Part shown: piece after piece, positions 1 through 18,785 of the stretch
Position numbering within the stretch: position 1 is the first letter of the stretch
Layout of the letters: each line of letters begins with the position of its first letter
DNA from: Acidobacteria bacterium Mor1
GTDB lineage: Bacteria > Acidobacteriota > Polarisedimenticolia > Polarisedimenticolales > Polarisedimenticolaceae
DNA: 64,000 nt
Direction of reading: 5' to 3'
Assembly (NCBI GenBank): GCA_001664505.1
Contig: CP011806.1
Location: forward strand, 2,391,138-2,455,137
Made by a program: the position numbers and the translations under genes
The notes under the pieces: model-generated
Seen by the model: only the letters and a program-made list of their open reading frames with translations
Database searches by the model: none
Told to the model about the DNA's origin: nothing

Positions 1-1
1 C

Positions 2-442: not shown

Positions 443-1521
443 TGACCAACCTCGACACCATCACCGAGAAGATCCTGCAGGAAGAGCGGATCAGTACCGA
501 CGAGGCGCTGTGGCTCCTGGAGAACGCCGAGCTGTCGGAGCTGGGCGCCATGGCCGACCTGGTGCGCCGCCGCAAGCATCCCGACGGCGTGGTGACCTAC
601 ATCATCGACCGCAACATCAACTACACCAACTTCTGTAACGCCTTCTGCAACTTCTGCGCGTTCTACCGCCAGCCCCACCACGAAGAGGGCTACGTGCTGC
701 CGGTGGAGCAGATCGAGGCCAAGATCCAGGAGACTTTCGACCTGGGCGGCAATCAGATCCTGCTGCAAGGGGGCCACAACCCGGATCTCAAGATCGACTA
801 CTACGAGGAGCTGTTCCGGCGGTTGAAGACCACCTTCCCCTCGCTGTGGCTCCACGCCCTGTCCCCCCCGGAGATCGTGCACATCTACAAGGCCTCGCGG
901 CTGAGCCTCGATGAAACCCTGGACCGGCTGATCGCCGCCGGCCTCGACTCGATCCCCGGCGGTGGCGCCGAGATCCTGGTCGACTCGGTGCGCAAGAAGC
1001 TGGCCAAGAACAAGTGCAGCGCCGACGAGTGGCTCGAGGTGATGGAGGTTGCCCACGGCAAGGGGCTGCGCTCCACCGCGACGATGATGTTCGGCCACGT
1101 GGAAACCCGCGCCGAACGGATCGAGCACCTGAACCGGGTGCGCGAGGTGCAGGACCGCACCAAGGGCTTCACCGCCTTCATCGGCTGGACCTACCAGGCG
1201 GACAACACCGAGCTGGGCGGCGACGAGGTCACCACCGCCGAGTACCTGCGCACCCTCGCGGTCGCCCGGGTGTTCCTGGACAACATCGAGAACTTCCAGG
1301 CCTCGTGGGTCACCCAGGGCGCCAAGATGGCCGGCGCGTCGCTGGCCTTCGGCGTCAACGACATGGGCAGCACCATGATCGAGGAAAATGTCGTCGCCGC
1401 CGCGGGCACCGTGCACCGGATGAACGAGCCGGAGATCGTCGCCGCGGTGCAGGACGCCGGGTTTGTCGCCAAGCGGCGGGACATGACCTACGCCGAACGG
1501 CTGGAGCCGGCCCGCGCCTGA
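442..1521 (+). CDS. mqnC: Cyclic dehypoxanthine futalosine synthase MqnC (radical SAM)
   Basis: This 359-residue protein is a radical SAM enzyme that cyclises dehypoxanthine futalosine to its cyclic form in menaquinone synthesis. The 4Fe-4S motif CNAFCNFCAF (Cys65, Cys69, Cys72; C-x3-C-x2-C) sits in the expected N-terminal position after NYTNFC. The later segments ILLQGGHNPDL and DSIPGGGAEIL are typical of the MqnC/MqnE/CofH group. MqnC is preferred over MqnE because of the coupling to mqnA and the full-length match to the usual ~360 residues. The start ATG overlaps the mqnA stop. Nothing is missing. A perfect GC hairpin follows the stop. Confidence 0.93.
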   Translation: MTNLDTITEKILQEERISTDEALWLLENAELSELGAMADLVRRRKHPDGVVTYIIDRNINYTNFCNAFCNFCAFYRQPHHEEGYVLPVEQIEAKIQETFDLGGNQILLQGGHNPDLKIDYYEELFRRLKTTFPSLWLHALSPPEIVHIYKASRLSLDETLDRLIAAGLDSIPGGGAEILVDSVRKKLAKNKCSADEWLEVMEVAHGKGLRSTATMMFGHVETRAERIEHLNRVREVQDRTKGFTAFIGWTYQADNTELGGDEVTTAEYLRTLAVARVFLDNIENFQASWVTQGAKMAGASLAFGVNDMGSTMIEENVVAAAGTVHRMNEPEIVAAVQDAGFVAKRRDMTYAERLEPARA

Positions 1522-1558
1522 GCGATTCGCGCCGCATTCGGAGATCCGGGGCTCGATT

Positions 1559-1584
1559 GGGCCGCAGGCTCTCGCCTGCGGCCC
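1559..1584. terminator. Perfect 11-bp hairpin between convergent genes
   Basis: GGGCCGCAGGC, a TCTC loop, then GCCTGCGGCCC form a perfect 11-bp stem 37 bases after the mqnC stop and 27 bases before the end of the convergent heme-protein gene. No T-run follows on either strand, so it is either a U-less intrinsic terminator or a 3'-end stabilising structure that serves both directions. Confidence 0.55.
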
Positions 1585-1611
1585 GAAGAGGACGACCGCC
1601 TGCGGAGCCGG

Positions 1612-4600
1612 CTACGGGCTCGCCGTCTGTCCGATGTCCTGGGAGGTTGGGACACACTCGCCGACAAGTTGCGATACCCGCTTGCGGTACACCTGCCGGT
1701 TGTCCGCGTGATCCACTACTCGGATGGTGATCCAGGCATTGCCGATATTCGAGACGTTGAACACCGCCGAACCGTTGGGAATCGGATTGGCCGGACTCGT
1801 CCAGAGTTGCTGGTAGAGCGGTGCATTCTCGTTCGCCCGCTTGAGTACCGTGACCTCCTTGACCTTGTCGGAGTCGTCCCACCAGCCAACGCGGATGCGT
1901 GTCGGGTCGCAAGTCGGGGTCACCAACGCGGCATCGGCAGTTGGGTGGAAGCGATCGAAGTCCGCATCGTAGGGCCGGTCCTTGTTGCGGATTAGCCCGT
2001 GGTCGATCCATTTGCCCAGCTTCAACATCCAGTCGGCGTAGGCCTGGTCGCCGTTGACGCAATTGTCCGCGAGGACGGCATGCGCATCCGTGTGGTAGTA
2101 GGTACACCCATCGGTCTCGCCCCCCGCCTCACAGTTGTCATGATCCGCCGGATTGTAGTCGCTGTTGGGGCGACCGTCGGTGCGGCTGCCGGCCGCGGCC
2201 CAGAACAGCTGGCTACCCAACGCCCCGAGCCGGGCATCGGCATACTGGAGAGCCACGATGGCGTCGTAGACCGCCTTTTCCTCGCTGGCATCGAGGACTC
2301 CCCAGGACAACGCGTCGACACCGCTCTGATCTCCGGTAAGGGTGCTGTGACAACCGGCGCAATTGTCCTGCAGTCCAGCGACGATATCGGCTCTCCACTC
2401 CGGCATGGCTTCGGTGGGCGCGCTGACCGTGGCCAGGGTCGGATTGCAGAAAGCGTCGTAGGCGACCGTCGGAGTTGCTCGAACCATGTCCACCGGCGGG
2501 TTCTGATCGGCATAGGTCCCGCCGAAATCCACCGGCGACTCCAGCAGATCGTGTTGGTGGCAGCCTCCACAGTCCGTGCGGCTCTCCCTCGGCTTGAGAC
2601 TGTGCCAGCTGCGCACGTCGGCAAGTCGCATCCCGTACTCGCTGTCCAACAAATGGAAGTCGAAGGGAACGTTCGAGGGGATCAGCGCCTTGAAGGACTG
2701 GTCCTGCTGCCCGCGCACGTCGTGAACGCCGAGCAAGCGAGGCACTTCACGCTTGTGTTCGCCGGAATTGTAGCCTCCGTGAAAGCCGAGATTCGGCTCG
2801 TTACTGGTGGTATGGACTGCTATCCCAAGAATCTCCGAAGGGTCCGGCTTGGCGCAGTCCAGCGTGCCCTGGTCGTAGGTGACTTTGGTCCAGAGATCGC
2901 GGTTCTTGAACGTCTTGTCGCCGTCGCTGGACGAGGTCCACGGAGAGTAGATGTCGCCAGCCACCTTGACGCACTCAAAGGGTTTGATATCGGTGTTGTA
3001 GAGCGCCGAGGTGCCGACCTGAGCGAACGGCTCTCCTTCTAGAATCGGAGCCGCGTGATCAATGATCGGATCGGCGCTGAATTGCTGCTGACTGTCGCCG
3101 TTGCTGCGAGTCGACCATGGCACCATCGGCGTCGGCCAGGAAAGGTTGAAGCCACCTGTGGTGTCGACAACCACCTTGTAGGCGCCGCCGTTGGCGACGG
3201 TCTCTCCCGGCGTGAACGGCTCGAGGTCCGGCCGAAAGCCGATGTGAGCGGAGTAGAGGTTCCGATGGCATTCCCCGTCGTAGATGCGCGCGTTCGCACT
3301 TGTCGGGGTGTAGGAGAAGAACAACTCGTCAACCCCACCGCAGCGCGGGGCCGTAAACTTTCCGTAGTAGCTACCGTCGGCGCGCTGACAACTGGGGTAG
3401 TCCGCCGCCAGCGTCTGGGAGCATTCCGGTCCTACGGGCGTCAGCTCGATCGAGCCGTGCTGCTGCGGCGACTTGGTCCCCCCGGACGCATTGTCGTAGG
3501 TGTTGATCCCGATGATCTCCAGATCTTGCTTCCAAAGCGAGCCATAGCCCTCGTTCTGGTCGTTGTAGTACTTGGCCGCGACGACGTAGTCCTTGAACGC
3601 CCCACCCCCTTCGTCGGCCACGCAGAACGACTGCAGGTGAAACAGCTCCGGCCCGTGGCCGTAGCCGAGCAACGGATACCAGCGCCCTTCACTGTCCATC
3701 CCCTGGATGTGCCACAGCCGCCTGTCCTCGGTGGTTGCCTGATATGAGAACGCCAGCCCTTCTCTCAACGGCGACGGACTGAGAGCCGACGTGGTCGTGT
3801 AGTACTGAAACTGGTTTTCGATCTTGTGCAGCGTTCCGTCCGCCTTCAGGTCCGCCATGTGCAAGTTAAAGTTGTTGTTGACCACGTTGAACACGCTGTT
3901 GGAGTTGCCCAGTCGGCGCTTGTTGCTCACATAGACCAGCTTCAGCCCGGTCCGGGTGCGGACTTCCGTGGGGTGCATGTAAACCGTACCGTAGCGGGTA
4001 TCGCCGTAGTCGGTCGACGATGCCAGGGTCGGGTTCATCGCGTCCTTGTCCCGGTCGGCCTCGTCCTGTTTCATGGTCGTCCCCTGGTACTCCCGGGTCG
4101 TCAGTCGCTGCAGCGGCAGGGTGGCCGGATCGACCGAGGGGTCGGCAAGCAAGGCCGAGACATCGATGACGTAGATATCCGCCCCAGACCAGGGCAAGGG
4201 GGCGGAGCTGTTACCGGTGCTGTTGGCCGGCGTCGCGTCGTGGAAATACGAGAAGTAGATCCGCGTACCGTCCTCCGAGGCGCTGGGTTCGATGACCGAC
4301 CCGACTCCGATTGCCGCGTCGATTTCCGAGAGGTGTACCGGCAAGGGAAAGAGCTGCTTCACCGCTCCGTTGGCAGGAAGGTACATCCAGAGTTCATTAC
4401 CAGGATCCGGATCGTTGGCGGAGAGCACATCGGTTCCGATGTGGTACTTACCCTTGCGACCATCGACGATGGTCCCGTCGCACGAGCATCCCTCGCACTC
4501 GGAGCAGCTACCGTTGGCCTTCTGACAGTGCGGAGTGATCTCCTCGACGATCGGGGCGCGGACGAACGCGACCGGATAGTTCGGCAAGTAGAAGTCCGGG

Positions 4601-4710
4601 TCGCCTGGGTTGTTGCTTGCTGTATCGAAGGATGCGGCCACATGTCCGACCGCAAAGGGGGCGAGGCATAGCGCGATCGCTCCGTAGAGCACGGATTTTC
4701 GGTTCACCAC
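1612..4710 (-). CDS. Exported diheme cytochrome c protein, HzsA (hydrazine synthase alpha)-like
   Basis: This large exported protein (1032 residues) begins with a clear signal peptide (MVNRKSVLYGAIALCLAPFA...). The middle looks like a beta-propeller with repeated SxDGxxIYF and LVYVSN-type strands. Two c-type heme motifs lie late: CGGCH at about residue 713, in the context RESRTDCGGCHQHD, and CAGCH at about residue 787. The segment around the first, with an upstream SWHSLKP and then CGGCHxH, resembles the widespread HzsA-like family named after the alpha subunit of anammox hydrazine synthase. Membership does not imply hydrazine chemistry. A Cys-rich patch (CSECEGCSCDG) occurs near residue 70. 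The start is GTG (two in tandem at 4710 and 4707) behind AAGGAG. It is the last gene of a minus-strand set that begins with an ECF sigma factor. A periplasmic electron-transfer role is inferred. Confidence 0.72.
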   Translation of the reverse strand: MVNRKSVLYGAIALCLAPFAVGHVAASFDTASNNPGDPDFYLPNYPVAFVRAPIVEEITPHCQKANGSCSECEGCSCDGTIVDGRKGKYHIGTDVLSANDPDPGNELWMYLPANGAVKQLFPLPVHLSEIDAAIGVGSVIEPSASEDGTRIYFSYFHDATPANSTGNSSAPLPWSGADIYVIDVSALLADPSVDPATLPLQRLTTREYQGTTMKQDEADRDKDAMNPTLASSTDYGDTRYGTVYMHPTEVRTRTGLKLVYVSNKRRLGNSNSVFNVVNNNFNLHMADLKADGTLHKIENQFQYYTTTSALSPSPLREGLAFSYQATTEDRRLWHIQGMDSEGRWYPLLGYGHGPELFHLQSFCVADEGGGAFKDYVVAAKYYNDQNEGYGSLWKQDLEIIGINTYDNASGGTKSPQQHGSIELTPVGPECSQTLAADYPSCQRADGSYYGKFTAPRCGGVDELFFSYTPTSANARIYDGECHRNLYSAHIGFRPDLEPFTPGETVANGGAYKVVVDTTGGFNLSWPTPMVPWSTRSNGDSQQQFSADPIIDHAAPILEGEPFAQVGTSALYNTDIKPFECVKVAGDIYSPWTSSSDGDKTFKNRDLWTKVTYDQGTLDCAKPDPSEILGIAVHTTSNEPNLGFHGGYNSGEHKREVPRLLGVHDVRGQQDQSFKALIPSNVPFDFHLLDSEYGMRLADVRSWHSLKPRESRTDCGGCHQHDLLESPVDFGGTYADQNPPVDMVRATPTVAYDAFCNPTLATVSAPTEAMPEWRADIVAGLQDNCAGCHSTLTGDQSGVDALSWGVLDASEEKAVYDAIVALQYADARLGALGSQLFWAAAGSRTDGRPNSDYNPADHDNCEAGGETDGCTYYHTDAHAVLADNCVNGDQAYADWMLKLGKWIDHGLIRNKDRPYDADFDRFHPTADAALVTPTCDPTRIRVGWWDDSDKVKEVTVLKRANENAPLYQQLWTSPANPIPNGSAVFNVSNIGNAWITIRVVDHADNRQVYRKRVSQLVGECVPTSQDIGQTASP

Positions 4711-4855
4711 AAGGGCTCCTTTCCGGCGCGGTCTCGGCTGACGTGCTGTCGCCGGCCGGTGCGCCCGGAACCCTAGGAGTTCGCCCTAATGCAGATTGCC
4801 CAGGCGATTTCGGATCCCCGCAAAAAAAGAGTCGCCGAATGTCTCGCCCGCGAGG

Positions 4856-4888
4856 GCGCCGCAGGCTCCGTTGACGAGCCTGCGGCGC
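4856..4888 (-). terminator. Perfect 13-bp hairpin after the subtilase-like gene
   Basis: GCGCCGCAGGCTC (4856-4868) pairs perfectly with GAGCCTGCGGCGC (4876-4888) around a 7-base loop, starting 11 bases beyond the stop of the upstream minus-strand gene. A run of seven T on the minus strand lies about 27 bases further on (4822-4828), too far for a textbook terminator. It may attenuate transcription into the downstream heme-protein gene, which has its own ribosome-binding site. Confidence 0.5.
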
Positions 4889-4898
4889 TTGCCCGTAG

Positions 4899-6437
4899 CT
4901 ACGGCACGAGAATCGGCTGAGACAGGAAGAAGCAGACGGGATCGTCCGGATCACTTACGCTGCAGTCGGCCGCCGGGTCGGTCTTGAGCGCGAAGAACAT
5001 CGACGGCTGGGTCGGCGACAACTGAATGAGATCGCCGCCGCCGGTGATTGTTATCCCGGCGAGGTTACCCTGCTCCAGATCCGCGATTTGTTGTGGGCTC
5101 AACATCAACCGGTGAAAGTTGTTGCCGACGCGCAGATACGCGCTATCCAACAGAGTCCCGGTGGGCAGCCGAGAAGACTGAGACGTGTCGACGAAGAGGT
5201 CGGTGCTCCAGGGCCCCCCACCTCCGTTGTCTTGCTCGTCTCCGGTGCAGGGCAAACAAGGGTCCGCCTCGGGGGTCGGCCCCACCAGTTTGGTCCAGGC
5301 TGCCCAGCCGGGTAGGTCCGGTTGGTTCTGAGGCGGCGCGTACTCGGTTCCCGGTGAAAAGAAGCTACTCGCCCAGCAGGTGTCGCTGTAGCCTCCGGCC
5401 AACCCCTCCATGATCTCCCCGAACTCGGGGTGACAGGGACCCACCAAGGACCAATCGAGCCCCAGGCGGTAGCAGTTGTGCGGCGCCCAGTGCAGTGGAC
5501 GCCAGCGGCCGACCGAAGCCGGGTCGATCGCCGGGTCATGGTGGCGTGCATGGGCGATCATTCCGGAGGCGAGACTCGTGGAATAAGACGAACCACTGGC
5601 CAACGCCGTCGCGTCGTCGAGGCATAGCGAATTGCCCGGAAACAGCGCGTCGTAGCTTGCTGGAGATTCCCATGCGGGACGCATCAGCCCGTCTCGGATC
5701 ATGCGAGTGGTGTCGACCATCGAAGCGGCTACCACCATGTCGATCGAGGCGGGAAACAACAAATCTCGCTGGTTCCCCGCAGCCGCTACGACAACGGCGC
5801 CACTGCTGCCCGGCCCATCGGTCAGGTGCTCGATAACCCGGGTGAGATGACACGCGATCGAATCGACCGCACAGGTTTGCCCCGAAACCGGATCGCCTGC
5901 GATCGAGGCGCGCCCGAAGCTCATATTGATGGCGAGGGGGTACGTCCCGGCTCGATTGTCGACGCTCTCCGCCACGGCACACAACCGGGCAAGGACGTGG
6001 AAATCCGAAACGACACTCCCGAGCGGCGCCAGGTCGTTGGTGTCCAACCTCTTGCGAACGACGTCGACACCGCTCGGCACCATACGCGAGTGCATCTCGG
6101 TGGTGCTGGAGCCGTGATCGCCCTTGAAATCGAGAACCAGGGTCCAGGGCGACGGAGTCGTGGGCAACGCCGAGGCAAAGATCGACATCTCCAAATAGGA
6201 GTTCGTCGGCGGCGGCGGATAGATCTGGGCGGTCTCGGTGATCTGCGCGTTGGGCGAACAGCCTTGCGGTACGACGATGTCGCCGAAATGAAAGACTCCG
6301 AGATCCCCGCAAGGGACCTCCAAGGTCGACTGCCCACTTCGGCAGCCCTCGTCCAGTAGGGACCACGTCGTCTGCGCATCCGCGCTACTGACGCAGACCA
6401 GCATCGAGAGCAAGATCCAAGCGCATTTTCTGTTCAC
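4899..6437 (-). CDS. Exported subtilase-like (S8 family) protein, probably degenerate
   Basis: This 512-residue exported protein starts at GTG behind a strong GAGGAGG site and has a signal peptide ending near SADAQ. Three subtilisin-like landmarks are visible: a His motif HGSSTTEMHS, the core NMSFG ... VVVAAAGNQ with FPAS after it, and the Ser motif ASGSSYSTSLASGMIAHA, matching the usual GTSxAxPxxAG region. The usual Asp motif is not convincing: the nearest LVLDFKG lies only a few residues before the His motif, whereas subtilases normally have about 30 residues between Asp and His. The protein is therefore either a divergent protease or a pseudo-protease. The ~180-residue C-terminal part is unassigned. 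The gene is 22 bp after the anti-sigma-like gene and likely co-transcribed with the CHAT protease. Confidence 0.6.
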   Translation of the reverse strand: MNRKCAWILLSMLVCVSSADAQTTWSLLDEGCRSGQSTLEVPCGDLGVFHFGDIVVPQGCSPNAQITETAQIYPPPPTNSYLEMSIFASALPTTPSPWTLVLDFKGDHGSSTTEMHSRMVPSGVDVVRKRLDTNDLAPLGSVVSDFHVLARLCAVAESVDNRAGTYPLAINMSFGRASIAGDPVSGQTCAVDSIACHLTRVIEHLTDGPGSSGAVVVAAAGNQRDLLFPASIDMVVAASMVDTTRMIRDGLMRPAWESPASYDALFPGNSLCLDDATALASGSSYSTSLASGMIAHARHHDPAIDPASVGRWRPLHWAPHNCYRLGLDWSLVGPCHPEFGEIMEGLAGGYSDTCWASSFFSPGTEYAPPQNQPDLPGWAAWTKLVGPTPEADPCLPCTGDEQDNGGGGPWSTDLFVDTSQSSRLPTGTLLDSAYLRVGNNFHRLMLSPQQIADLEQGNLAGITITGGGDLIQLSPTQPSMFFALKTDPAADCSVSDPDDPVCFFLSQPILVP

Positions 6438-6459
6438 GGATTTCCTCCTCGGGCTTCCA

Positions 6460-7245
6460 CTACTCGTTGTCGTGTTCTCGGTTGGAAAGCGGCCGAGCTC
6501 GCAGGGTGAAGGTCTTGCGATACGCTGCGATGTGCGACTCCTCGCGCAGGTGATCCAAGAGCGCCTTCCCGGAAAGGCCGTCGGGAATCACCATCGAGGG
6601 TTGCAATCGCTCGGCGGGAGCCACGAGGACAAACAGCGAGTACTCCCCCGGCTGCGACCCGACGAACCGCGACGCCTCACCGCGGAACATGGCGCTATCG
6701 CGAGTGACCCTTCTTTCGATACCGAGCTGGCCGTCCAGCCGGACGAGGCTCCGGCCACTGCGGCTGTAGAGCCCGAAATCGACCCTCTGCGAAAGCCCCT
6801 CCTCCGCCGCCACATCGACCCGCAGGAGCGTGTCCGGAAACGCCTCGGACTCTGAGGCTGCCGACCGGACCTCGGCGAGACCTCCAAGGCTCACGGCGAA
6901 CTGACCGGGTGTCCAGACGTCCTGGTCGGCAGTGCGTGACACCCACAGCCCCACTAGCACGAGTGCACCGATCAGAGCCGCCGCAACCAAAGCCGGACCG
7001 GAGGAGGCGATCCTCCGTGACCGATGGGAGCCGGGCTGCGGGTCCCGGATTCCCGACAACTCCGCCAGGCGCCGGCGCCCTTCGGCACTGGCCGCCAACA
7101 AGTTCTCGATACGCTCCCGCTCGACATCGTCACAACTTCCCCGATGAAACGCCTCTAGATCCTCGTCGCTGAGGGCGACGTCGTCCGGGGCCGGATCGAA
7201 GCGCGCCGACTCCCAAAGCATTCTCTCCAGCTCCCGTTTCTTCAT
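6460..7245 (-). CDS. Membrane anti-sigma-like protein without zinc motif
   Basis: The start is taken at 7245, where the ATG overlaps the stop of the CHAT gene (ATGA); frames opening further upstream would overlap that gene and lack support. The 261-residue product has an N-terminal cytoplasmic helix-rich part (LSDEDLEAFHRGSCDDVERERIENLL...) like the anti-sigma domain. It has only one His and one Cys where HxxxCxxC would be expected, so it is a zinc-less variant. One transmembrane segment follows (ALVAAALIGALVLVGLWV, near residue 110). The exported remainder of ~130 residues is unassigned and contains SGRSLVRLDGQ and PGEYSLFVLVAP. Its place beside an ECF sigma gene suggests that it tethers that sigma factor at the membrane. 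This is inferred from architecture and context. Confidence 0.6.
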   Translation of the reverse strand: MKKRELERMLWESARFDPAPDDVALSDEDLEAFHRGSCDDVERERIENLLAASAEGRRRLAELSGIRDPQPGSHRSRRIASSGPALVAAALIGALVLVGLWVSRTADQDVWTPGQFAVSLGGLAEVRSAASESEAFPDTLLRVDVAAEEGLSQRVDFGLYSRSGRSLVRLDGQLGIERRVTRDSAMFRGEASRFVGSQPGEYSLFVLVAPAERLQPSMVIPDGLSGKALLDHLREESHIAAYRKTFTLRARPLSNREHDNE

Positions 7246-10001
7246 CGCGTCGCCGCCCTTGCTCGACCGGCGTTGCCGGCCCCCTGCTCCGCTCCCAAGA
7301 GCATCAGAGCCGCCCAACGCTCCACCGGATGCGAACGGCGAACGTCGCTGAGCGCGAGACGGAACGCCTCGGGCACGTCCACCGTGCGTCCGTCCTCCAG
7401 ATACGCGTAGAACGAGCGATTGAACCGCTCAGCCACGGCGTCGTCGAGGTCCGCACGCGAGGCAACCACCCAAGGAGTTCCCTTTCGCGCCAGAACCCCA
7501 GCAATGCCGTAACGGCCGCTGTCTGCGGTAGGCGGGTTCCGCCCCGTCCGGCATCCGCTGAGATTTGCCAGATACATGGAGTCCGGCAGGTCGCGAATTG
7601 CCTCGGCAAATACGTCTCGATCGTAGAATTTGAGCGCCGAGAGTTCGGCGAAGGCCGGATCGTAGGCAGCGTGGGTGTCCAGGTGCAGCCAGTCGACCTC
7701 GGGAAGCCGGTCGAGCACGGCCTGGGCTCGAGCATCCTCCCGGTGCAGCACACTCGCTTCCTCGTATCGCTGTCGGTAGTACTGCGCCATCCGGCGCCCC
7801 GAAGCTAGATTGCCCTCAGGATCGACGACGAACATGCGCCGGGGGTTCGCCGGCGGAAGGCGGTCACTCCCGGCTCCGGCAGGCCGGTAAACCACCGCAG
7901 TGTGGTCCGACAGCACACCGTCGCCGAGGGGAAGTGCATCCAGTGGGATCTCCTGCAACCGCCCGTGGACCGCAAAGATGGTCCGGGCCCCCATGTCGGA
8001 CGCCTCGGGGACCACTGCAGCCGAAAGCGGGCCCACTAGATCACCCCACGGCACCGCCGTGTCCGCGACATGACCGGGGTCGAGCCGCTGCGTAACCGCG
8101 TCGGCGACCGCTGCGACAGCCCGGCGTTTCATCTTGGTTCGCCGATAGATCTGCACGGTCCCCCGGTGGCGACGCAGCATCACGATCTCGCTTTGGAGCG
8201 GCGCGATCCGGAAGTCGATATCCCGCCCCAGTGTCGCGAAACCGGACGTGGAAGTCCGGTCCAACTCGCGCAGCTGCGCACGGAGCCGCTGCTCAACGGC
8301 TTTGCGATATCGGTCGGCCGTCTTCGTCGGCCGGCCAAGGCGTTCGAGCTGGGCAAGCAGGTGCTTGCGGCGTTGAGCTTGCTCCTCGGGCTCAGTCGAT
8401 GGGGACTTCGCCTGTGTCGACTGATCCAGCGCGGCCAGGTAGTCCCAGGCAGCCTCGGCGTCACCCCGTTCGACGGCGATGCTGGCGGCGAGCAAGTAGC
8501 GGTCGGAGTGACGTCCCGGAACGGCCGGCACCTGCTGACCCAACTTCCCCACCCCTTCGCGTTCCTGAAGCTCCACCGCGTCTGCCGCCAATGCAGCCGC
8601 TTCGCCGAGATTGCCGTTGGCGAGGGCAGCCCGAGCGCGACAGTCCGTAGCGAAGATCGCAGCAGCAGTGCGATCCGTACGGGATACGACCGACTCGCAG
8701 ATAACAGCCGCATCTCGAACCCGGCCCTGGCCGAGCAGGCGAGAGGCTTCGACCAGCTCGATCCAATCGGTGATTTCTCGCCCCCGCGAAGAGTTCGAGA
8801 GATCGGCGGAGGAACTGAGGATCCCCCGAGCCTCTTCCAGCGCGAGGCTGGAGTCAGCTCCGCGGATCCACTCCAGGTAGGCGAGGTTTACCTGCGTGTT
8901 CGCGCGCTCCAGCAGGTCGTCGGACTCCGCCTCTCCCGCGAGAGCCTCTTTCAGACCCGCCTCGACTGCCTCCAACTTGCCGTCTCCGAGGTAAGGGTCC
9001 GATAGCGCGTACCAGGCCAGCGTGCTCTGAGCGGCAGCGCGGTGTCCCATGTTGCAGTCCGACTCCCGGCACTGCTCGAGAGTCTCGGCCAGATGCGACC
9101 GCGCCTCACCTTCTGCGCCGATGCGCCAGAGCAACTGTGCCTGCTTGAGCGCGACCAACAGCATCCGTTGATCGGCAACCGGCCCGAACGCTCGCTCGGC
9201 TTCCTTGTAGTGGTGCCATGCCGTCCGCAGCTCGTTCTCCTCCAGGGCCAGGCTGGCTCGCTCGTAGGAGAGAGCTCCGCTCCAGATCAGGGCGCTGGGG
9301 CTTTCGAACCACTCGGGCTGCTCTTCGAGCAACGCCCGCGCCTGAACGAGCGCTGTGGGAGAACCTTGTTGCCGTAGCATGTAGGCGGCGATGGTCCGCG
9401 TCCGCATGCGGAACATCGGATATCCCAGTTCCTGGGCACGGTCACCTAGTTCGACCAGTCGAGCAACCAACTCCTCGACTGGCTCGCTGTCTCGAAGAGA
9501 GAGGATTTCCCTCAGGGTAGCGAAGGAAGTGGCGTAGCTGCCCGTGTCGACGGCGTACCGGAATTCGAGGGCTCGCTCTACAGCTTGCTGGCTGTAGATG
9601 TCCTCGAGCAGGACTCGCAACACGTGAGTTCCGGGTTCGAGATCCTCCGGTACCGATCGATGGAAACAAACACTTGCATCCACCCTCCAGTCGATCTCCT
9701 TCGATTCCACCCCTTCCTCCAGATAACCATCGATGGTCAGGAGCGCTCGCCAACTCGAGGTCGCCGCATTGATCGGAGGCTGGAAACAGACCCCGACATA
9801 TTCGGAGCGCTGCCCGTTGACCACCATCGGCAGCCATTCCCCCTGGTGCCGCGAGGCAACCTGTTGATGGCCACGCAGGTGCACGGGACCTGGGTCGAAT
9901 ACGGGTTCTTGGGCCTCGCCGCATCCGGTGACGACAGCTGACACCGCCAGCACCGAAAGAGGAAGCGCCCACCGGGTCAGAGCTTCAATTGTTGACTGCA
10001 T
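7242..10001 (-). CDS. Lipoprotein TPR-CHAT domain protease (module A)
   Basis: This is a 919-residue TPR-CHAT protein. ATG 10001 is chosen because it gives a lipoprotein signal (LSVLAVSAVVTGCGEAQ, lipobox TGC), placing the protein outside the cytoplasmic membrane; opening further upstream would run deep into the sigma gene. Helical TPR-like repeats occupy about residues 150-600. The C-terminal ~300 residues form a CHAT caspase-like domain with both catalytic residues: His777 in HLDTHAAYDP and Cys817 in NLSGCRTG, followed by GIAGVLARKGTPWVVAS. The gene overlaps the sigma gene upstream by 25 bp and the anti-sigma-like gene downstream by 4 bp. A periplasmic protease that acts on a partner in its own operon is a reasonable inference. 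The anti-sigma-like or subtilase-like protein are candidate substrates, but nothing in the sequence proves a target. Confidence 0.8.
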   Translation of the reverse strand: MQSTIEALTRWALPLSVLAVSAVVTGCGEAQEPVFDPGPVHLRGHQQVASRHQGEWLPMVVNGQRSEYVGVCFQPPINAATSSWRALLTIDGYLEEGVESKEIDWRVDASVCFHRSVPEDLEPGTHVLRVLLEDIYSQQAVERALEFRYAVDTGSYATSFATLREILSLRDSEPVEELVARLVELGDRAQELGYPMFRMRTRTIAAYMLRQQGSPTALVQARALLEEQPEWFESPSALIWSGALSYERASLALEENELRTAWHHYKEAERAFGPVADQRMLLVALKQAQLLWRIGAEGEARSHLAETLEQCRESDCNMGHRAAAQSTLAWYALSDPYLGDGKLEAVEAGLKEALAGEAESDDLLERANTQVNLAYLEWIRGADSSLALEEARGILSSSADLSNSSRGREITDWIELVEASRLLGQGRVRDAAVICESVVSRTDRTAAAIFATDCRARAALANGNLGEAAALAADAVELQEREGVGKLGQQVPAVPGRHSDRYLLAASIAVERGDAEAAWDYLAALDQSTQAKSPSTEPEEQAQRRKHLLAQLERLGRPTKTADRYRKAVEQRLRAQLRELDRTSTSGFATLGRDIDFRIAPLQSEIVMLRRHRGTVQIYRRTKMKRRAVAAVADAVTQRLDPGHVADTAVPWGDLVGPLSAAVVPEASDMGARTIFAVHGRLQEIPLDALPLGDGVLSDHTAVVYRPAGAGSDRLPPANPRRMFVVDPEGNLASGRRMAQYYRQRYEEASVLHREDARAQAVLDRLPEVDWLHLDTHAAYDPAFAELSALKFYDRDVFAEAIRDLPDSMYLANLSGCRTGRNPPTADSGRYGIAGVLARKGTPWVVASRADLDDAVAERFNRSFYAYLEDGRTVDVPEAFRLALSDVRRSHPVERWAALMLLGAEQGAGNAGRARAATR

Positions 10002-10612
10002 CGTTCCAGCGCCCGATTGAGTGCGAGTTTGAGGTTGTACGTGACCTTGCGGGACCACCCGGTCAGGGTTGAAATCTCCTCCGGTGTGTATCCGTCCACG
10101 TAACGCAGGCGATAGTAGAGGTAGATGCGCCCTCCCTTTCTCTGAATGCACTGGGCCAGTCGTTCGAGCATAGCTCGATCAACGCCTTGAGACTCGGGAT
10201 CCTCGTCCGGCGTCCCCAACTCGTATTCCGGGTGCAGAATCTGAGGAAGACGGGCCTTCGACCGGCGGCGATTCGCAGTGAGGCCACAGGCGATGTTCCA
10301 CAGCATCCGCTCAACCCGGGCGGCGGTGATCTCGCCTCCGCCCTTGTCGAGTAGCGCTCGGAACACCTGGGCATCGCGCTGCAGCGCACTCACGAAGGTG
10401 TCCTGCAACAGGTCGTCCGGATCGAGCCAGCGAGCCCTGCCATAGCGGCCCAGGATACGACGGTAGATTCGCGGAGCGAACTGCTCGTACAGCCAGGCCT
10501 TGGCCCGCTCGCTCCCGGCGACGATCGCCCGAAGTGACTCGGCAACCGACCCGGAGCCGCTGTGCCCCTCAGTGTCGCCAAGCTCCGAGGGCGCCTGCTT
10601 GTCCTGTTTCAT
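9977..10612 (-). CDS. ECF-type RNA polymerase sigma factor (module A)
   Basis: This 211-residue product has sigma region 2 (WLYEQFAPRIYRRIL ... LDPDDLLQDTFVSALQ, with the DDLxQ core) and a C-terminal region 4 helix-turn-helix (LRYVDGYTPEEISTLTGWSRKVTYNLK). It lacks regions 1.1 and 3, as ECF factors do. ATG 10612 is the best start, although the preceding bases contain no good Shine-Dalgarno site; a TATATT hexamer (minus strand, 10627-10622) lies 9 bases before it, so the mRNA may be nearly leaderless. It heads the CHAT / anti-sigma-like / subtilase / HzsA-like set and probably directs transcription of that set. Residue spacing is typical and no truncation is seen. Confidence 0.85.
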   Translation of the reverse strand: MKQDKQAPSELGDTEGHSGSGSVAESLRAIVAGSERAKAWLYEQFAPRIYRRILGRYGRARWLDPDDLLQDTFVSALQRDAQVFRALLDKGGGEITAARVERMLWNIACGLTANRRRSKARLPQILHPEYELGTPDEDPESQGVDRAMLERLAQCIQRKGGRIYLYYRLRYVDGYTPEEISTLTGWSRKVTYNLKLALNRALERCSQQLKL

Positions 10613-10805
10613 CCGATTCGGAATATACCGCGTCCCGCGGTTCAGCGGGTCCACTGCGACGCGACGGAGGCACGACACCCTCAGCCCTGAGGCGCCGCCG
10701 AGAAATCGACTCTGCGCGTGAATCGGTGTAACGCTCATCCTCCCGCCGGGACCTGTCTCCCGAATCCAACAACAGCCGCCGCCGGCGGCGCACAGGAGAC
10801 CCCCG

Positions 10806-11231
10806 ATGCGTTTGAAAACCCTGACCCTGGCCATCGTTCTGTTGGCCCTCTCCGCCTCTGTGGCCCAGGCCGATGCGCCCCTGGCCAAACGGCTCGAACT
10901 CGACACCGCCCAGGCGGGGACCGTCGCCGAGATTCAGGCCAAACACCGCGCCGAGATGCGCAAGGAGCGTGGTGCGCTGAATCGCGAATCCCGGGCGCTG
11001 CGGCGGGCTCGCGCCGCCAATGACAGCGAACTCGTCGCCAAACAGGAAGCGGTCGTCGCCGAGCTCCAGAGCAAGATGGCCCAGCGGATCCTGGCCGAGG
11101 ATGCCGAGATTCGCGCGGTCTTGAATCCGGAGCAGCAGAAGAAGTTCGACGCCTGGATCGAGGAGCGCAACAAGATGGTCGGCAGCTCCCGGGACGCCCG
11201 GGTGTTGAAACCGGCGAAGAAGGCTGACTAG
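10806..11231 (+). CDS. Spy/CpxP-like periplasmic helical protein
   Basis: This 141-residue exported protein has a signal peptide (MRLKTLTLAIVLLALSASVAQA) and then an almost entirely helical, highly charged body (EIQAKHRAEMRKERGALNRESRALRRARA). It ends with LNPEQQKKFDAW, close to the LTxxQ-type motif of Spy/CpxP-like chaperones and periplasmic stress sensors. Size and composition fit that group. The ATG follows AGGAG at good spacing. It is transcribed divergently from the module A sigma gene, with ~190 bp between them, so a link to envelope stress is plausible but not shown. It could also be an unrelated small coiled-coil protein. Confidence 0.6.
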   Translation: MRLKTLTLAIVLLALSASVAQADAPLAKRLELDTAQAGTVAEIQAKHRAEMRKERGALNRESRALRRARAANDSELVAKQEAVVAELQSKMAQRILAEDAEIRAVLNPEQQKKFDAWIEERNKMVGSSRDARVLKPAKKAD

Positions 11232-11271
11232 GCCGGCGGATCTCGTATCCGAAGAGCCTCTCCGAATCTCG

Positions 11272-11302
11272 GGGCGTCTGCGGGACCGTTCCGCAGGCGC
11301 CC
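11272..11302. terminator. 12-bp hairpin between convergent genes
   Basis: GGGCGTCTGCGG (11272-11283) pairs with CCGCAGGCGCCC (11291-11302), with one G-T wobble, around a 7-base loop. It lies 41 bases after the Spy-like gene and touches the stop codon of the convergent Rrf2 gene. TATTTG follows on the plus strand. It probably terminates the plus-strand transcript. Confidence 0.6.
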
Positions 11303-11772
11303 TATTTGCGTTTGCGCAGACGCGCCCCGGCGGTACGAGGTGTCCTTTCTTCGCAGAGCGGGCCCCTGCCCCCTTTCGAACCGACCAGTTGCGCGAGAGT
11401 CACCTCCGCGAAGGCGCTGCGGATCTTCTCGTAGGCGACATCGATCGCAGAATGGAGCGGACACAACGAGCGATGAGACTCGATGCCCAGGGGACAACGC
11501 TCGATCCGCGGAATCGGCGCCACCGCATCGACCACGTCGAGGATGGTGGTGAGCCCCGGCGGCTCCAGTAGTTCGTAGCCGCCCCCGGGTCCGCTGCGCG
11601 AACCCACGAGCCGATGCTCGCGCAGCGCCTGCAGCACCCTCGTCAGGTAGCGGCGCGGAATCGCCGTCCTCTCCGCGATCCGGTCCGCCGACAGCGGCGT
11701 TCCGGCCTCCGCAGCGAGGCAACTCACCGCGCGCAATGCGTACTCAGCGGTCTGCGACAGCACCTGAAGCAT
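11302..11772 (-). CDS. Rrf2-family transcriptional regulator
   Basis: This 156-residue regulator begins MLQVLSQTAEYALRAVSCLA, the standard Rrf2 N-terminus; ATG 11772 is chosen for that reason and longer frames add only unrelated residues. The winged-helix segment is complete (LSADRIAERTAIPRRYLTRVLQALREHRLV), followed by the wing SRSGPGGGYELL. The sensor region has RCPLG and LCPLH. Fe-S members such as NsrR and IscR have three Cys here; this one shows two, so a classical cluster site is incomplete. A pair of 23-bp direct repeats (11800-11849) lies 28-77 bp upstream, between this gene and the divergent propeller gene. It is a probable operator for autoregulation and for that neighbour. Confidence 0.85.
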   Translation of the reverse strand: MLQVLSQTAEYALRAVSCLAAEAGTPLSADRIAERTAIPRRYLTRVLQALREHRLVGSRSGPGGGYELLEPPGLTTILDVVDAVAPIPRIERCPLGIESHRSLCPLHSAIDVAYEKIRSAFAEVTLAQLVGSKGGRGPLCEERTPRTAGARLRKRK

Positions 11773-11799
11773 CCTCCCGGAAAAAGGCTTCGACGCCCG

Positions 11800-11849
11800 A
11801 ATTCTACACCTTGACGTACAGAACTCAATTCTATACCTTGACGTACAGA
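11800..11849. promoter_or_regulatory. Two 23-bp direct repeats, likely Rrf2 operator
   Basis: Copies at 11800-11822 and 11827-11849 read AATTCTAYACCTTGACGTA followed by CAGA. They differ at one position and have a 27-bp period, so they lie a little over two helical turns apart. They are in the intergenic region between the Rrf2 gene and the divergent PQQ-type propeller gene and contain TTGACG on the plus strand. A regulator-binding tandem site is the simplest reading; the identity of the binder is inferred from position. Confidence 0.65.
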
Positions 11850-11909
11850 TCATTCGACGGCGGGCATCCGAGATGACCGCGTGTCGATACCGCTTCGGGA
11901 GGTCCAGCC

Positions 11910-13355
11910 ATGAGAGTCCCGGTCAGGCGCCGTGATGCAATCCTGATTCTCGCTTCATGTCTACTTGCGATGCCGGTCCTCGCCGAGCAGAACTGGACCG
12001 GGTTCCGCAACGAAGGAACCGGCAGGATCCAGGCCGACGGCGTTCCGACCTCCTGGGCCCCCGACCGAAACATCGCCTGGAACGCGCCCATACCGGGCTA
12101 CGGCCAGTCTGCCCCGGTCATCTGGAAGGACACGGTCTTCGTCACCTCCAGCGACGGTCCGTGGCAGGAGACCGGCTTCGTCCACGCCTACGATCTCGCC
12201 GGCGGTGCTTTGAAGTGGAGTACTTCCGTACCGGCAACCACCAAGTTCGAGAACTACTTCCGCAACAGCCGCGCGGCTCCCACACCGGTCGTCGACGAGC
12301 AGCGGGTCGTCTCGTTCTTTCCGGGGGGTGACCTCACTGCGATGGATCACCACGGCCGGGTCCTCTGGACCGTCCCCCTGTTCCGGAAGTTCGGCATGCC
12401 GGAGAACGAACGAGGCACCGCCGGGTCCCTGGCGCAGTCGAAGGATCTGGTCTTCGCCGTTATCGACCATGCCGGCCCCTCCTACGCCGTTGCCCTGCGC
12501 AAGTCCGACGGGGCGATCGCCTGGAAGGTAGCCCGCGGCACAAGAGAGGCATCGTGGACATCGCCGGTCGTCATGCGTCACGAGGGACGAGAACTGCTGG
12601 TGATCTCCTCGGCGGGCAGTGTCGACGGCTACGTTGCGGAGACCGGAGCCTTCGCCTTCCAGGTAAGCGGGTTCCAGGGCAATCTGATCCCGTCGCTGAC
12701 CGTTCACGCCGGTTCGCTGTTCGTGGGATCGACCGAGATGTTCCACGGCAACTACGACCCCGACACCGTGGCCGCATCCAACAGCCGCATCGATCTGCTC
12801 GGCGGGAAGGGTGCGACCTACAGGTTCCGCTGGGGCACCGAGAAGGCGAACGCCTACTATGCGTCTCCCCTCGTCTTCGCCGGCTACGTCTACTACGTGA
12901 ACAAGTCGGGGGTGCTCTACGCCGTGGACGCGGGCAGCGGAGAGCGGGTCTTCGCCGCACGGCTGGGCAAGCCCTGCTGGGCCAGCCCGATCGGAATCAC
13001 CGACCGGCACGGCAACCCGCGGGTCTACTTCTTCATGAAGAGCGGCGAAGCCGTCGTCCTGCGCCCGGGCAAGACCTTCGACGTCGTCTCGCGCAACAAG
13101 CTCTGGACCCGCGCGACGATGGAGGCGGCCGCAAGCGAGGCCAGGACGCTGCGTCGCACCAACAGAGTCCCTGAAGGGGAGGCCCCACCCAAGGAGGGCC
13201 CCGAGAAGGTCCTCGGCAGCCTGCCCGAATCGGCGCTCCACCGGGTGTTCTCCTACGGGGACCCGATCGCCTACGCCGCGGCGGCGGTTGACGGAAACCT
13301 GCTGATTCGCACCGGTCAACAGTTGTTCTGCGTGCGACAGGACGAGGCGCCTTAG
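11910..13355 (+). CDS. Exported PQQ-type beta-propeller protein
   Basis: This 481-residue exported protein has a signal peptide ending near MPVLAEQ, then repeated PQQ-like blades: SAPVIWKDTVFVTSSD, AYDLAGGALKW, DLTAMDHHGRVLWTVP, YAVALRKSDGAIAWK, LYAVDAGSGERVF. This is the eight-bladed quinoprotein-type fold seen in PQQ dehydrogenases and in non-catalytic proteins such as BamB. No quinoprotein heme motif or calcium/Asp active site could be identified, so an enzymatic role is not claimed. Similar proteins are often annotated only as PQQ-binding-like propellers. It is divergent from the Rrf2 regulator with the repeat pair between them, which suggests regulation by Rrf2. A short GGTTC-type hairpin follows the stop. 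Confidence 0.75.
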   Translation: MRVPVRRRDAILILASCLLAMPVLAEQNWTGFRNEGTGRIQADGVPTSWAPDRNIAWNAPIPGYGQSAPVIWKDTVFVTSSDGPWQETGFVHAYDLAGGALKWSTSVPATTKFENYFRNSRAAPTPVVDEQRVVSFFPGGDLTAMDHHGRVLWTVPLFRKFGMPENERGTAGSLAQSKDLVFAVIDHAGPSYAVALRKSDGAIAWKVARGTREASWTSPVVMRHEGRELLVISSAGSVDGYVAETGAFAFQVSGFQGNLIPSLTVHAGSLFVGSTEMFHGNYDPDTVAASNSRIDLLGGKGATYRFRWGTEKANAYYASPLVFAGYVYYVNKSGVLYAVDAGSGERVFAARLGKPCWASPIGITDRHGNPRVYFFMKSGEAVVLRPGKTFDVVSRNKLWTRATMEAAASEARTLRRTNRVPEGEAPPKEGPEKVLGSLPESALHRVFSYGDPIAYAAAAVDGNLLIRTGQQLFCVRQDEAP

Positions 13356-13377
13356 CGCACCGCTCAGGCGCGTGTGG

Positions 13378-13398
13378 GAACCGCTGCGACGGTTCTTT
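13378..13398 (+). terminator. Short hairpin with partial T-run
   Basis: GAACCG (13378-13383), a 6-base loop and CGGTTC (13390-13395) are followed by TTTC. It stands 23 bases after the propeller gene stop. This is a weak terminator candidate. Confidence 0.35.
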
Positions 13399-13495
13399 CG
13401 TCCATTGCGCAAAACCAGGGAACCAGGCCCGTTTTTCGCCGTTTCTCCGTGCGACACTGAGATTCGTCACGCCTCCGACGGCGGAAAGGAGCCCC

Positions 13496-15685
13496 ATGTA
13501 CCTGCGCGCAATGGTCCTCTGCGGCCTCGTCCTTACCGCTGCCGCCGGCTTGCCCGCCTGGTGCGACAGCGACAGCGTCCAGCCCTCCGTAGCCGAGGCC
13601 GCCGCCGCCGCAGACCCCTTTCCCCACGCCGAGGCCGCTGACCTCGGCATCTCGGAGAAGGCCCTGGCCCTGCTCCGCCAGCGCATCGCCTCCCTGGTCG
13701 AAGAAGAGCAGATCGTCGGCGGTGAGCTGCACGTGATCAAGAACCGGCGCACGGTCCTGCGTGAGGCGGTGGGCTGGAAGGACCGGGACGCCGAGGTCCC
13801 CCTCGAAACCGACGCGATCTACTGCGTGCGCTCGATGACCAAGCCGCTGGTCGGCACTGCAATCCAGATGCTGCTGGATGAGAAAAAACTGACCCTCGAC
13901 ACCCCGGTGCACAAGATCCTGCCCTCCTTCGACACCGAGGCAACCCGGGCCATCACCGTCGAGCACCTGATGACCCACACCGGCGGCTTCCCCTTCACCA
14001 CGCTGACCGGGACGCTCGATCAGTACGCCGACATCGGCGCCGTGGCGGCCGAGGCCGCAGCACGCGGCGTCGACTTCGAACCGGGCTCACGCTTCGAGTA
14101 CAGCGACGCCGGCAGCGATACGTTGGGCGCGATCGTGGCCAAGATCACCGGCGCTCCTGCCGAACAGTTCATCAGCGAACGCATCCTGAAGCCCCTGGGC
14201 ATGAGCGATTCCCATCCGCTGATCGGCGGCAAGGACGCCGTGGTTGCCCGCATCCCGAGCGCCTACTCCGGCGGCACCGGAGCATGGGAACGCCACTGGT
14301 CCCCCGACGATCCGCCGATCTTCCCGCTGTTCCTCACGTCCCAGAGCCTGTACGCCACCACCACCGACTACGCCCGCTTCCTGACGCTGTGGATGGACGG
14401 CGGGGTCCACGACGGCCGCAAGCTGCTCTCCCCCGAGGCCGTCGAGCGAGGTTTGAAGCCGCGCAACGCCATCGCCATGCCCCGGGGTTTCTCCGGCCGC
14501 GATTCCCGCTACGGCCAGCAGTGGATCGTCTACGCCCCCGCGGAGCCCTCGCCCCGAAGCGGCGCCCTCTTCGGCCACAACGGTTCGGACGGCACCTACG
14601 CCTGGGCCTGGCCCGAGCAAGACTTGATCGTGCTGTTCTTCACCCAGTCCCGGGGCACCATGGCCGGCCTCGGACTGGAGCCGGTGCTCCAGACCCTGCT
14701 GATCGACGGCAAACTGGACGACCCGTCTCTGACCACCCGCGAGCCCGACTCCGTCGAACTCGAGCAGTCCGCCGGACTCTACTGGGACGAGACCAACGAG
14801 GCCGCCTACTACGTGATCTACCCCTCGGGGAAACGGCTGGTGATGGAGCGGCCGGGCAAGGCGCAGCTGGTGTTCAAGCCCACCCCCACACCGGGAAGCT
14901 GGGTCCACGAGGTGAACGCCGCGATCCGCCTGGACTTCGTGCGGGATGCCTCCGGCGCCGTGCCCGCGGTGCACATGCGCTTCGGCGAGAACTCCGAGCT
15001 CCAGCAGCGCCACAGCATCGACGAGAATCTGCCCAGCGTCGATGAGGTCGTCGCGCTGGTGCGTGGGCATCACAACCTGAACAAGCTGAGCGAAGTCGGA
15101 GGGGTCCGGCTGACCGGCACCGTCGACTTCAAGACGCGCAACACCAAGGGCCCGGTCGAGACCCTGTTCGACACCAGGCGGCACCGCACCGAGGTGAGCT
15201 TCGGAACCGCCGTGCAGACCGCAGTGACCGACGGCGAGCGCGCCTGGTCCCACAACGCGGCAACCGGCAGACAGGAACTGGAAGGCGTGCTGCGCGAGCA
15301 GCAGCTCCTGGCCCATCCCCTGGCCCAGTTCGACGACTGGCGCGAACACTTCGCGCAGGTCGAGGTGCTCAAGCGTATTCAACGCGGGGAGCGCTCGATC
15401 CTCGTGGTCCGTGCGGTTCCCGCCGAGGCGCCGGGAATGAGCTTTTTCGTCGACGAGGCGACAGGGCGGATCTTCCGTGCCGAATCCCTGGTACAGATGC
15501 CCGGCATGGGCATGCTCGGCGTGCGGCATGACTTCGGAGACCTGCGCGAGATCGCCGGCATGCGCTACCCGTTCAAGACCCGGGCGACCTACGCAACCCC
15601 CTTGATCGGCGAAGTGCACACCGTGCTGGAGAAGGCGGAACCGGTCGCCGAGATCGAAAGCAGCGCCTTCGAGTTGCCGGAGTAA
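13496..15685 (+). CDS. Exported class C beta-lactamase-like serine hydrolase with C-terminal LolA-like extension
   Basis: This 729-residue protein has a signal peptide (MYLRAMVLCGLVLTAAAGLPAWC). The first ~400 mature residues are a serine beta-lactamase/penicillin-binding fold: Ser113-x-x-Lys116 (SMTK), then HLMTHTGGFPF, the YxN position as Tyr202-Ser-Asp (YSD instead of YSN) and His361 in GHNGSDG. It is more likely an exported esterase or D-peptidase than an antibiotic-resistance enzyme. The last ~230 residues (GHHNLNKLSEVGGVRLTGTV, TAVTDGERAWSHN, LREIAGMRYPF) look like the beta-rich outer-membrane-lipoprotein/LolA-like domain common in exported acidobacterial hydrolases. GGAAAGGAGCCCC precedes the ATG. 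The stop lies 26 bases before the next gene, with a start-blocking hairpin between. Confidence 0.78.
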   Translation: MYLRAMVLCGLVLTAAAGLPAWCDSDSVQPSVAEAAAAADPFPHAEAADLGISEKALALLRQRIASLVEEEQIVGGELHVIKNRRTVLREAVGWKDRDAEVPLETDAIYCVRSMTKPLVGTAIQMLLDEKKLTLDTPVHKILPSFDTEATRAITVEHLMTHTGGFPFTTLTGTLDQYADIGAVAAEAAARGVDFEPGSRFEYSDAGSDTLGAIVAKITGAPAEQFISERILKPLGMSDSHPLIGGKDAVVARIPSAYSGGTGAWERHWSPDDPPIFPLFLTSQSLYATTTDYARFLTLWMDGGVHDGRKLLSPEAVERGLKPRNAIAMPRGFSGRDSRYGQQWIVYAPAEPSPRSGALFGHNGSDGTYAWAWPEQDLIVLFFTQSRGTMAGLGLEPVLQTLLIDGKLDDPSLTTREPDSVELEQSAGLYWDETNEAAYYVIYPSGKRLVMERPGKAQLVFKPTPTPGSWVHEVNAAIRLDFVRDASGAVPAVHMRFGENSELQQRHSIDENLPSVDEVVALVRGHHNLNKLSEVGGVRLTGTVDFKTRNTKGPVETLFDTRRHRTEVSFGTAVQTAVTDGERAWSHNAATGRQELEGVLREQQLLAHPLAQFDDWREHFAQVEVLKRIQRGERSILVVRAVPAEAPGMSFFVDEATGRIFRAESLVQMPGMGMLGVRHDFGDLREIAGMRYPFKTRATYATPLIGEVHTVLEKAEPVAEIESSAFELPE

Positions 15686-15691
15686 GATGCC

Positions 15692-15711
15692 GCCATCCTC
15701 AGGAGGATGGC
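15692..15711 (+). promoter_or_regulatory. RBS-sequestering hairpin (translational coupling)
   Basis: GCCATCCT (15692-15699), loop CAGG, AGGATGGC (15704-15711) form a perfect 8-bp stem that ends one base before the ATG at 15712. The ribosome-binding site AGGAGG (15701-15706) is partly in the loop and partly in the stem, paired with TCCT. The stop codon of the upstream gene (15683-15685) is 6 bases before the stem, so a terminating ribosome would open it. Confidence 0.6.
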
Positions 15712-16152
15712 ATGACGCCCGAACAACTCTTCACCATCGCCAACACCTCGGTGCTGCCGGGCTGGGCACTATTGATCTTTCTCCCCCGCTGGCGCTGGAC
15801 CGCCCGCTTCGTGGCGCCGGTGCTGATCCCGACGCTCCTGGCGCTGCTCTACGTCTATCTGATCGCCGGCAATCTGTTCGGCTCCGAGGGAGGCTTCCGC
15901 ACCCTCGAGGGGGTGGCGCAGCTGTTCCGATCACCGCCGCTGCTGCTGGCCGGCTGGGTGCACTACCTGGCCTTCGACCTGTTCATCGGCGCCTGGGAGG
16001 TTCGCGACGCACAGGCGAACGGCATCCCTCACCTGCTGGTGATCCCCTGCCTGCTCGGCACCTTCATGCTCGGACCGGCGGGTCTGCTGCTGTATCTGAT
16101 CCTGCGCGCGACCATGCGCCGGCGACTGCAGATCGATGAACAAGCTGCGTAG
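15712..16152 (+). CDS. ABA4-like (DUF4281) small membrane protein
   Basis: This 146-residue integral membrane protein has about four hydrophobic helices (WALLIFLPRW..., VLIPTLLALLYVYLIAG, LLLAGWVHYLAFDLFIGAW, LLVIPCLLGTFMLGPAGLLLYLIL). The pairing of WVHYLAFDLFIGAWE with PHLLVIPCLLGTFMLGPAG is characteristic of the ABA4-like/DUF4281 family, named after a plant plastid protein needed for neoxanthin synthesis. The bacterial members have no established role. Its ribosome-binding site is buried in a hairpin behind the upstream hydrolase gene. It overlaps the next membrane protein gene by 17 bp, so the three probably form one operon. Confidence 0.75.
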   Translation: MTPEQLFTIANTSVLPGWALLIFLPRWRWTARFVAPVLIPTLLALLYVYLIAGNLFGSEGGFRTLEGVAQLFRSPPLLLAGWVHYLAFDLFIGAWEVRDAQANGIPHLLVIPCLLGTFMLGPAGLLLYLILRATMRRRLQIDEQAA

Positions 16153-16939: not shown

Positions 16940-16976
16940 CGCCGCGACGACAATTCGCATTCACCGAGGGATGCGG

Positions 16977-18581: not shown

Positions 18582-18595
18582 GGGCCCCAGCCTAC

Positions 18596-18732: not shown

Positions 18733-18785
18733 CCTTATCTCGGGCACCGCGAACTGAATCGCGGAACCCAAGAAGGAAGCAGATC

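Follow-up and report, generated by a model that had tools for sequence, protein, structure and literature searches.

The three consecutively overlapping genes at positions 6460–10612 in the analysed DNA of Acidobacteria bacterium Mor1 (the window, a stretch of 64,000 nucleotides) raise the question whether a caspase-like protease outside the cell membrane could control the release of a sigma factor, as a preliminary description of the locus had proposed. The coordinates, order and minus strand given there for a sigma factor, a CHAT protein and an anti-sigma-like protein are all correct, and a fourth gene has to be added to complete the unit, here called module A. The ECF sigma factor gene (9977–10612, 211 aa, with an ATG start at 10612) overlaps by 25 nt with the gene for the CHAT lipoprotein (7242–10001, 919 aa), and the CHAT stop codon overlaps the start of the anti-sigma-like gene (6460–7245, 261 aa) by 4 nt, ATGA. 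The S8 subtilase-like gene (4899–6437, 512 aa), which encodes an exported protein with a signal peptide, follows the anti-sigma gene after a gap of 22 nt, and all four are on the minus strand. Further downstream (1612–4710) is an exported protein of 1032 aa that matches PF18582 (hydrazine synthase alpha middle domain) with E=1.5e-9 and contains a c-type cytochrome-like CxxCH region, and the divergent neighbour (10806–11231) encodes a small exported protein with a weak Spy-like match (NF007769), which lends the surroundings an envelope-stress flavour. A futalosine menaquinone gene and deep-branching relatives hint at Acidobacteriota as the phylum. No shared ECF promoter motif was found upstream of 11 operons of this type (A-type), the best bipartite word being present in 3 of them, equal to shuffles.

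The sigma factor matches TIGR02937 over residues 40–206 with E=3e-8 and 33.4 bits, below the cut-off of 42.9, and the matches to PF04542 and PF08281 (sigma regions 2 and 4) are likewise sub-threshold. With 211 aa and regions 2 and 4 only, it has the layout of an ECF sigma factor, and the only PDB match of the profile made from the A-type family (A8) is an ECF sigma factor, E=0.005. Judged by these profiles the product is a divergent ECF sigma factor, and the original reading is supported, for a protein that falls under the Pfam cut-offs.

The C-terminal part of the lipoprotein (residues 658–904) matches the CHAT domain PF12770 with E=3e-20 and 73.3 bits against a cut-off of 24. His777 (codon 7671–7673, minus strand) and Cys817 (codon 7551–7553, minus strand), which can be read directly in the sequence, belong to the motifs expected for them, HxDxHA and NLSxC, and in the alignment of the family (A5) this catalytic dyad is invariant in all nine A-type homologues. 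The N-terminus carries the lipobox VVTGC with Cys27; this cysteine does not vary among the first five homologues, and a comparable one is found in eight of the nine N-termini, the exception being L050 with a plain hydrophobic N-terminus. In E. coli the residue following the lipoprotein cysteine guides membrane sorting (the +2 rule), and since this residue is never Asp in the A-type homologues, the CHAT protein is likely to be an outer-membrane lipoprotein facing the periplasm. The TPR repeats that had been assigned to the protein could not be retained, as Pfam detects none; the N-terminal part, with Ig-like sequence and helical repeats that have weak PDB matches only, is predicted to be a helical-repeat-like region at best. 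The anti-phage defence library PADLOC gave no match for module A.

PF00082 is matched by the S8-like protein with E=9.6e-8 and 32.1 bits, above the cut-off of 21.8, and by seven of the eight family members, and Asp103, His108, Asn222 and Ser284 are invariant in all eight. In the AF2 model, whose pLDDT of 77 compares with 56–67 for other models, the invariant residues have the expected positions, at the ends of strands and the starts of helices, with Asp and His only 5 residues apart. A Foldseek search with this model found no subtilase below E=0.2, so that the assignment rests on PF00082 and the invariant residues, and the activity of this divergent protein is uncertain. In a draw of 149 genomes of the phylum, which left out the cassette carriers G367 and G385, the subfamily occurs five times, only in G000 and G001 and always in the cassette. 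The invariance of the dyad and of the four S8 residues makes both proteins look as if they have been kept as enzymes.

The third gene encodes a membrane class I anti-sigma-like protein with one predicted TM segment. In an AF2 model made from the nine-row alignment, with a pLDDT of 79, the N-terminal three-helix domain typical of class I anti-sigma domains (ASDI) is formed by helices 27–34, 40–52 and 54–64 (pLDDT 80–96), followed by a TM helix at 87–104, within the predicted TM segment of 85–104, and an exported beta-sandwich at 116–248, for which Foldseek returns an Ig-like fold with matches that cover the exported domain only. Among 177,635 PDB sequences a five-row profile had a single, weak match, 3HUG_B with E=0.05, aligned over the zinc-motif region, and this sequence, which we take to be RslA, the anti-sigma-L of M. 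tuberculosis, is still the top match of the nine-row profile with E=0.24. A weak profile-profile relation to the zinc-type anti-sigma encoded elsewhere in the window (E=4e-4, probability 34%) and weak matches to zf-HC2 in three of nine A-type members are also found. The three-helix domain, the TM segment and the weak but specific similarity to RslA are shared with class I anti-sigmas such as RslA, RskA and RsiW (ASDI/zf-HC2); the Ig-like fold of its exported domain and its genomic link to CHAT and S8 set the protein apart from them. The three helices and the weak RslA-like match agree with the earlier assignment, and so does its name “zinc-less”, since the Hx3Cx2C motif is absent and no Cys or His is conserved among the nine members. 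As an unusual trait the loss does not stand, as about half of the membrane class I anti-sigmas lack the zinc motif (PMC7406223) and so do L015 and L019 of the B-type described below. By analogy to the family, the N-terminal domain is predicted to hold the ECF sigma factor.

The preliminary description proposed recurrence of the neighbourhood in related genomes as a check, with its absence as a refuting result, and the neighbourhood is found again in the same genome, in the class and elsewhere in the phylum. The full order ECF, CHAT, anti-sigma and S8 is kept in eight cassettes, always with the S8 gene in the same position. Four are in the Mor1 genome, namely the one in the window, L017 (4247–10125), L029 (4348–10153) and L030 (3647–9218), one is in another family of the same order (L033 in G001), and three are in two distant families of the phylum (L048 in G367, L046 and L049 in G385). 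The pairwise identity between cassettes is 0.28–0.38 for CHAT and 0.21–0.33 for the anti-sigma. The 4-nt ATGA overlap is found in five of the eight (the window, L017, L029, L033 and L046), which suggests that the two proteins are produced in a coupled manner. The A-type ECF family comprises 12 loci, ten of them with CHAT next door; in L050 (G195) and L034 (CAJQNK010000275.1) ECF and CHAT are visible up to the contig end. In L032 of the Mor1 genome (6926–7782) the gene after the ECF encodes a soluble protein of 62 aa, homologous to the N-terminal domain of the anti-sigma, and CHAT and S8 are absent, a natural minimal sigma/anti-sigma pair which shows that it is the N-terminal domain that remains with the sigma factor. 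L047 in G367, a genome that also carries the full cassette L048, encodes an ECF sigma factor, another, unrelated ECF-like protein and a complete membrane anti-sigma, with neither CHAT nor S8, so CHAT is not obligatory in cis.

The association of CHAT with ECF genes extends beyond this cassette. By search matches and fetched stretches the Mor1 genome contains 21 CHAT domains and 74 sigma region-2 matches, and 14 of the CHATs are located within 6 kb of a PF04542 match, where random placement would give 2.95 (binomial about 5e-8). The number near an ECF gene is 17 once ECFs found by other models are added, and 17 CHAT neighbourhoods combine an ECF gene with one for a membrane anti-sigma-like protein. 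The eight full cassettes and the excess of CHATs near ECF genes together argue that the arrangement in module A is not due to chance. In a wider sample, with one or two CHATs taken from each genome and several of the unlinked ones cut by contig ends, an ECF gene is present within 3 kb of 19 of 35 CHATs in the class and 9 of 20 in other classes of the phylum, and 16 and 6 of these, respectively, also have a protein with Hx3Cx2C and a TM segment. In each of two genomes of the phylum, G087 and G098, at least 25 CHAT matches are strong (66 first-look candidates), and many of the CHAT genes are in tandem on one contig.

A second arrangement (B-type) is represented in the window by module B (47409–51441) on the plus strand, and has no S8 gene in the cassette. 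It consists of an ECF sigma factor (47409–47954; PF08281 E=3e-9, PF04542 E=5e-7), a zinc-type membrane anti-sigma (zf-HC2, 47942–48598; PF13490 E=3e-5, above cut-off) and an exported TPR-CHAT protein with a C-terminal TM segment (48595–51441; PF12770 E=3e-50, separase similarity in PDB E=5e-5), which in PADLOC weakly matches BovA. The B-type ECF profile finds 24 loci in 12 of the 41 genomes of the class, and 21 of them have a CHAT domain no more than about 3.5 kb away on their contig; L112 and L113 run off the contig inside an exported third gene, and L111 has no CHAT.

Other exported proteins are found beside CHAT genes. Exported beta-propeller-like proteins of about 520 aa (YVTN/YncE-like by eye) are present in four CHAT/ECF/anti-sigma neighbourhoods of the Mor1 genome, L022 (8733–10280), L023 (8307–9866), L025 (8625–10259) and L026 (2647–4212), which suggests exchangeable partner modules; they were considered as S8 proteins and rejected, being beta-propeller-like by sequence with no Pfam match. 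Canonical-looking S8 subtilases are encoded directly downstream of CHAT in other genera of the class, in L074 (2718–4283) and L078 (5962–7527), which is an independent S8–CHAT pairing. These two and the large exported proteins at 51560–54460 in the window and at 7884–11336 in L032, all near CHAT cassettes, have similar-looking C-terminal ends (FYLVTGENGAGDES..., FAYLVRAGNACP..., FFYVFRD...DGAAWG), which may represent a shared domain for sorting or sensing.

A CHAT protease in the place of a sigma-release protease had been regarded as new, which is true in part. In Craspase a TPR-CHAT protease is encoded together with an ECF sigma factor and its inhibitor, and the system is switched by cleaving the inhibitor (PMC10028731). 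The parts of this type III-E CRISPR system, also known as CASP, are Cas7-11, the TPR-CHAT protein Csx29, Csx30 and CASP-sigma. A CHAT protease, a sigma inhibitor and an ECF sigma factor are common to both systems, with inhibition and cleavage being predictions in module A, but Craspase is cytosolic, bound to the RNA-guided effector and under CRISPR control, whereas the CHAT of module A is predicted to be exported, and the putative inhibitor of module A is a class I membrane anti-sigma with a single TM segment, which Csx30 is not. Membership of the module A CHAT in the Csx29/Craspase family was considered and rejected, since no NCBIfam model matches it and no match in the genome exceeds the Csx29 cut-off, no CRISPR-like array repeats are present at 1–20000 of the window, and none of the seven neighbours of module A is cas-like, all belonging to ordinary families or to no family. 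If the model below is right, module A would be an extracytoplasmic relative of Craspase in its logic, leaving kinship with Csx29 beyond the CHAT domain aside.

The same three-part logic of protease, anti-sigma and ECF sigma factor is seen in the type III CRISPR proteins CalpL (Lon protease), CalpT and CalpS (PMC11417357), where a cytosolic SAVED-Lon protein is activated by cyclic tetra-adenylate, in contrast to CHAT and S8 proteins predicted to be outside the cell membrane. Sets of protease, inhibitor and ECF sigma factor thus have precedent in two systems that are both cytosolic and CRISPR-triggered. With RseA/DegS/RseP module A shares an anti-sigma that spans the membrane once, between cytoplasmic helices predicted to bind sigma and an exported domain, and an expected site-1 protease outside the membrane; it differs in that the operon encodes no DegS-like protease, the candidates in cis being CHAT (a clan CD cysteine protease) and S8 (a serine protease). 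M50 proteases, candidates for the site-2 step, are encoded in the Mor1 genome and equally in all 14 control genomes. In the literature searched, which covered few subscription papers or supplements so that absence is weak evidence, Craspase is the only system joining CHAT, anti-sigma and ECF, and an exported, CRISPR-free, multi-copy version appears to be undescribed there.

We give a probability of roughly 45% to module A being an envelope signalling switch in which one or both exported proteases cut the anti-sigma and start the release of the sigma factor. At rest the membrane anti-sigma would hold the ECF factor by its cytoplasmic three-helix domain, as in its family, while its Ig-like domain would share a compartment with the lipoprotein CHAT and the S8-like protein from the same operon; the predicted topology agrees with the earlier proposal that protease and exported anti-sigma part are on the same side of the membrane. 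Proteolysis would be turned on by a ligand or an envelope state, for which the helical-repeat part of CHAT or the exported anti-sigma domain would be the sensor, and CHAT, either directly or by switching on S8, would cut the anti-sigma outside the membrane. An M50-type intramembrane cleavage and cytoplasmic proteolysis should then free the sigma factor for its presumed regulon. S8 is an equally good candidate for the site-1 protease; we rank CHAT as this protease first, with S8 acting downstream of CHAT as a close variant and the proteases as regulon outputs as the main rival.

Gene linkage fits the proteases equally well as members of the regulon. The ECF/anti-sigma pair could sense the envelope alone and autoregulate the operon, with CHAT and S8 acting on surface proteins, debris or competitors, which we consider unlikely but worth serious weight. 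ECF operons often include their own targets, the fourth position varies (S8 here, the beta-propeller-like proteins or canonical S8 subtilases at other loci, nothing in module B), and L047 holds the membrane anti-sigma without proteases. Against such a role as output, CHAT accompanies 10 of the 12 A-type and at least 21 of the 24 B-type loci, tighter than would be expected for an exchangeable effector, the CHAT and anti-sigma genes overlap in five of the eight cassettes, and in L032 the loss of CHAT accompanies the loss of the exported anti-sigma domain.

A two-protease cascade, where S8 is the site-1 protease and CHAT an upstream sensor that activates it, would be in line with SAVED-CHAT and PCaspase, in which a CHAT protease activates a second protease. 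The restriction of the S8 subfamily to cassettes among the 149 genomes points the same way, as do the identity matrices of the eight cassettes, uncorrected for shared descent, where the anti-sigma correlates with S8 (r 0.72, p 0.001) and not significantly with CHAT (r 0.35, p 0.12), so that, if they point to anything, they weakly favour S8 over CHAT as the partner of the anti-sigma. The B-type cassettes have no S8, however, and CHAT there would need another route, and the uncertain activity of S8, whose model found no significant subtilase, also makes the cascade rather improbable. The large N-terminal region of CHAT could instead serve as a binding platform, with cleavage being predicted only, so that CHAT would work without proteolysis, as a sensor or scaffold whose binding changes the conformation of the exported anti-sigma domain. 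This is the most improbable of the alternatives, as the dyad is invariant in the nine A-type proteins and intact in 36 of 40 ECF-linked CHAT domains, the remaining four being three with an unaligned His and L064 with a substitution.

Module A is a real, conserved, multi-copy cassette, wider than the preliminary description had it. The reading as a proteolytic switch can be extended, tentatively and at somewhat less than even odds, to a large undescribed class in which exported CHATs, sometimes together with S8, are dedicated site-1 proteases of membrane anti-sigmas, with more than ten parallel channels in a single genome, each with its own ligand, an extracytoplasmic and CRISPR-free counterpart of Craspase and possibly its source pool. 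Bacterial relatives of caspases are discussed mainly as effectors of cell death and anti-phage defence; the cassettes suggest that at the cell envelope bacteria may switch on genes with their help, by a cleavage that is predicted only. If true, caspase relatives would join everyday signal transduction across the envelope, the few site-1 proteases would be joined by CHAT and possibly S8, and Craspase would gain a plausible non-CRISPR cousin. Since one genome has 17 of its 21 CHAT genes in such settings, there are many natural replicates for a testable question.
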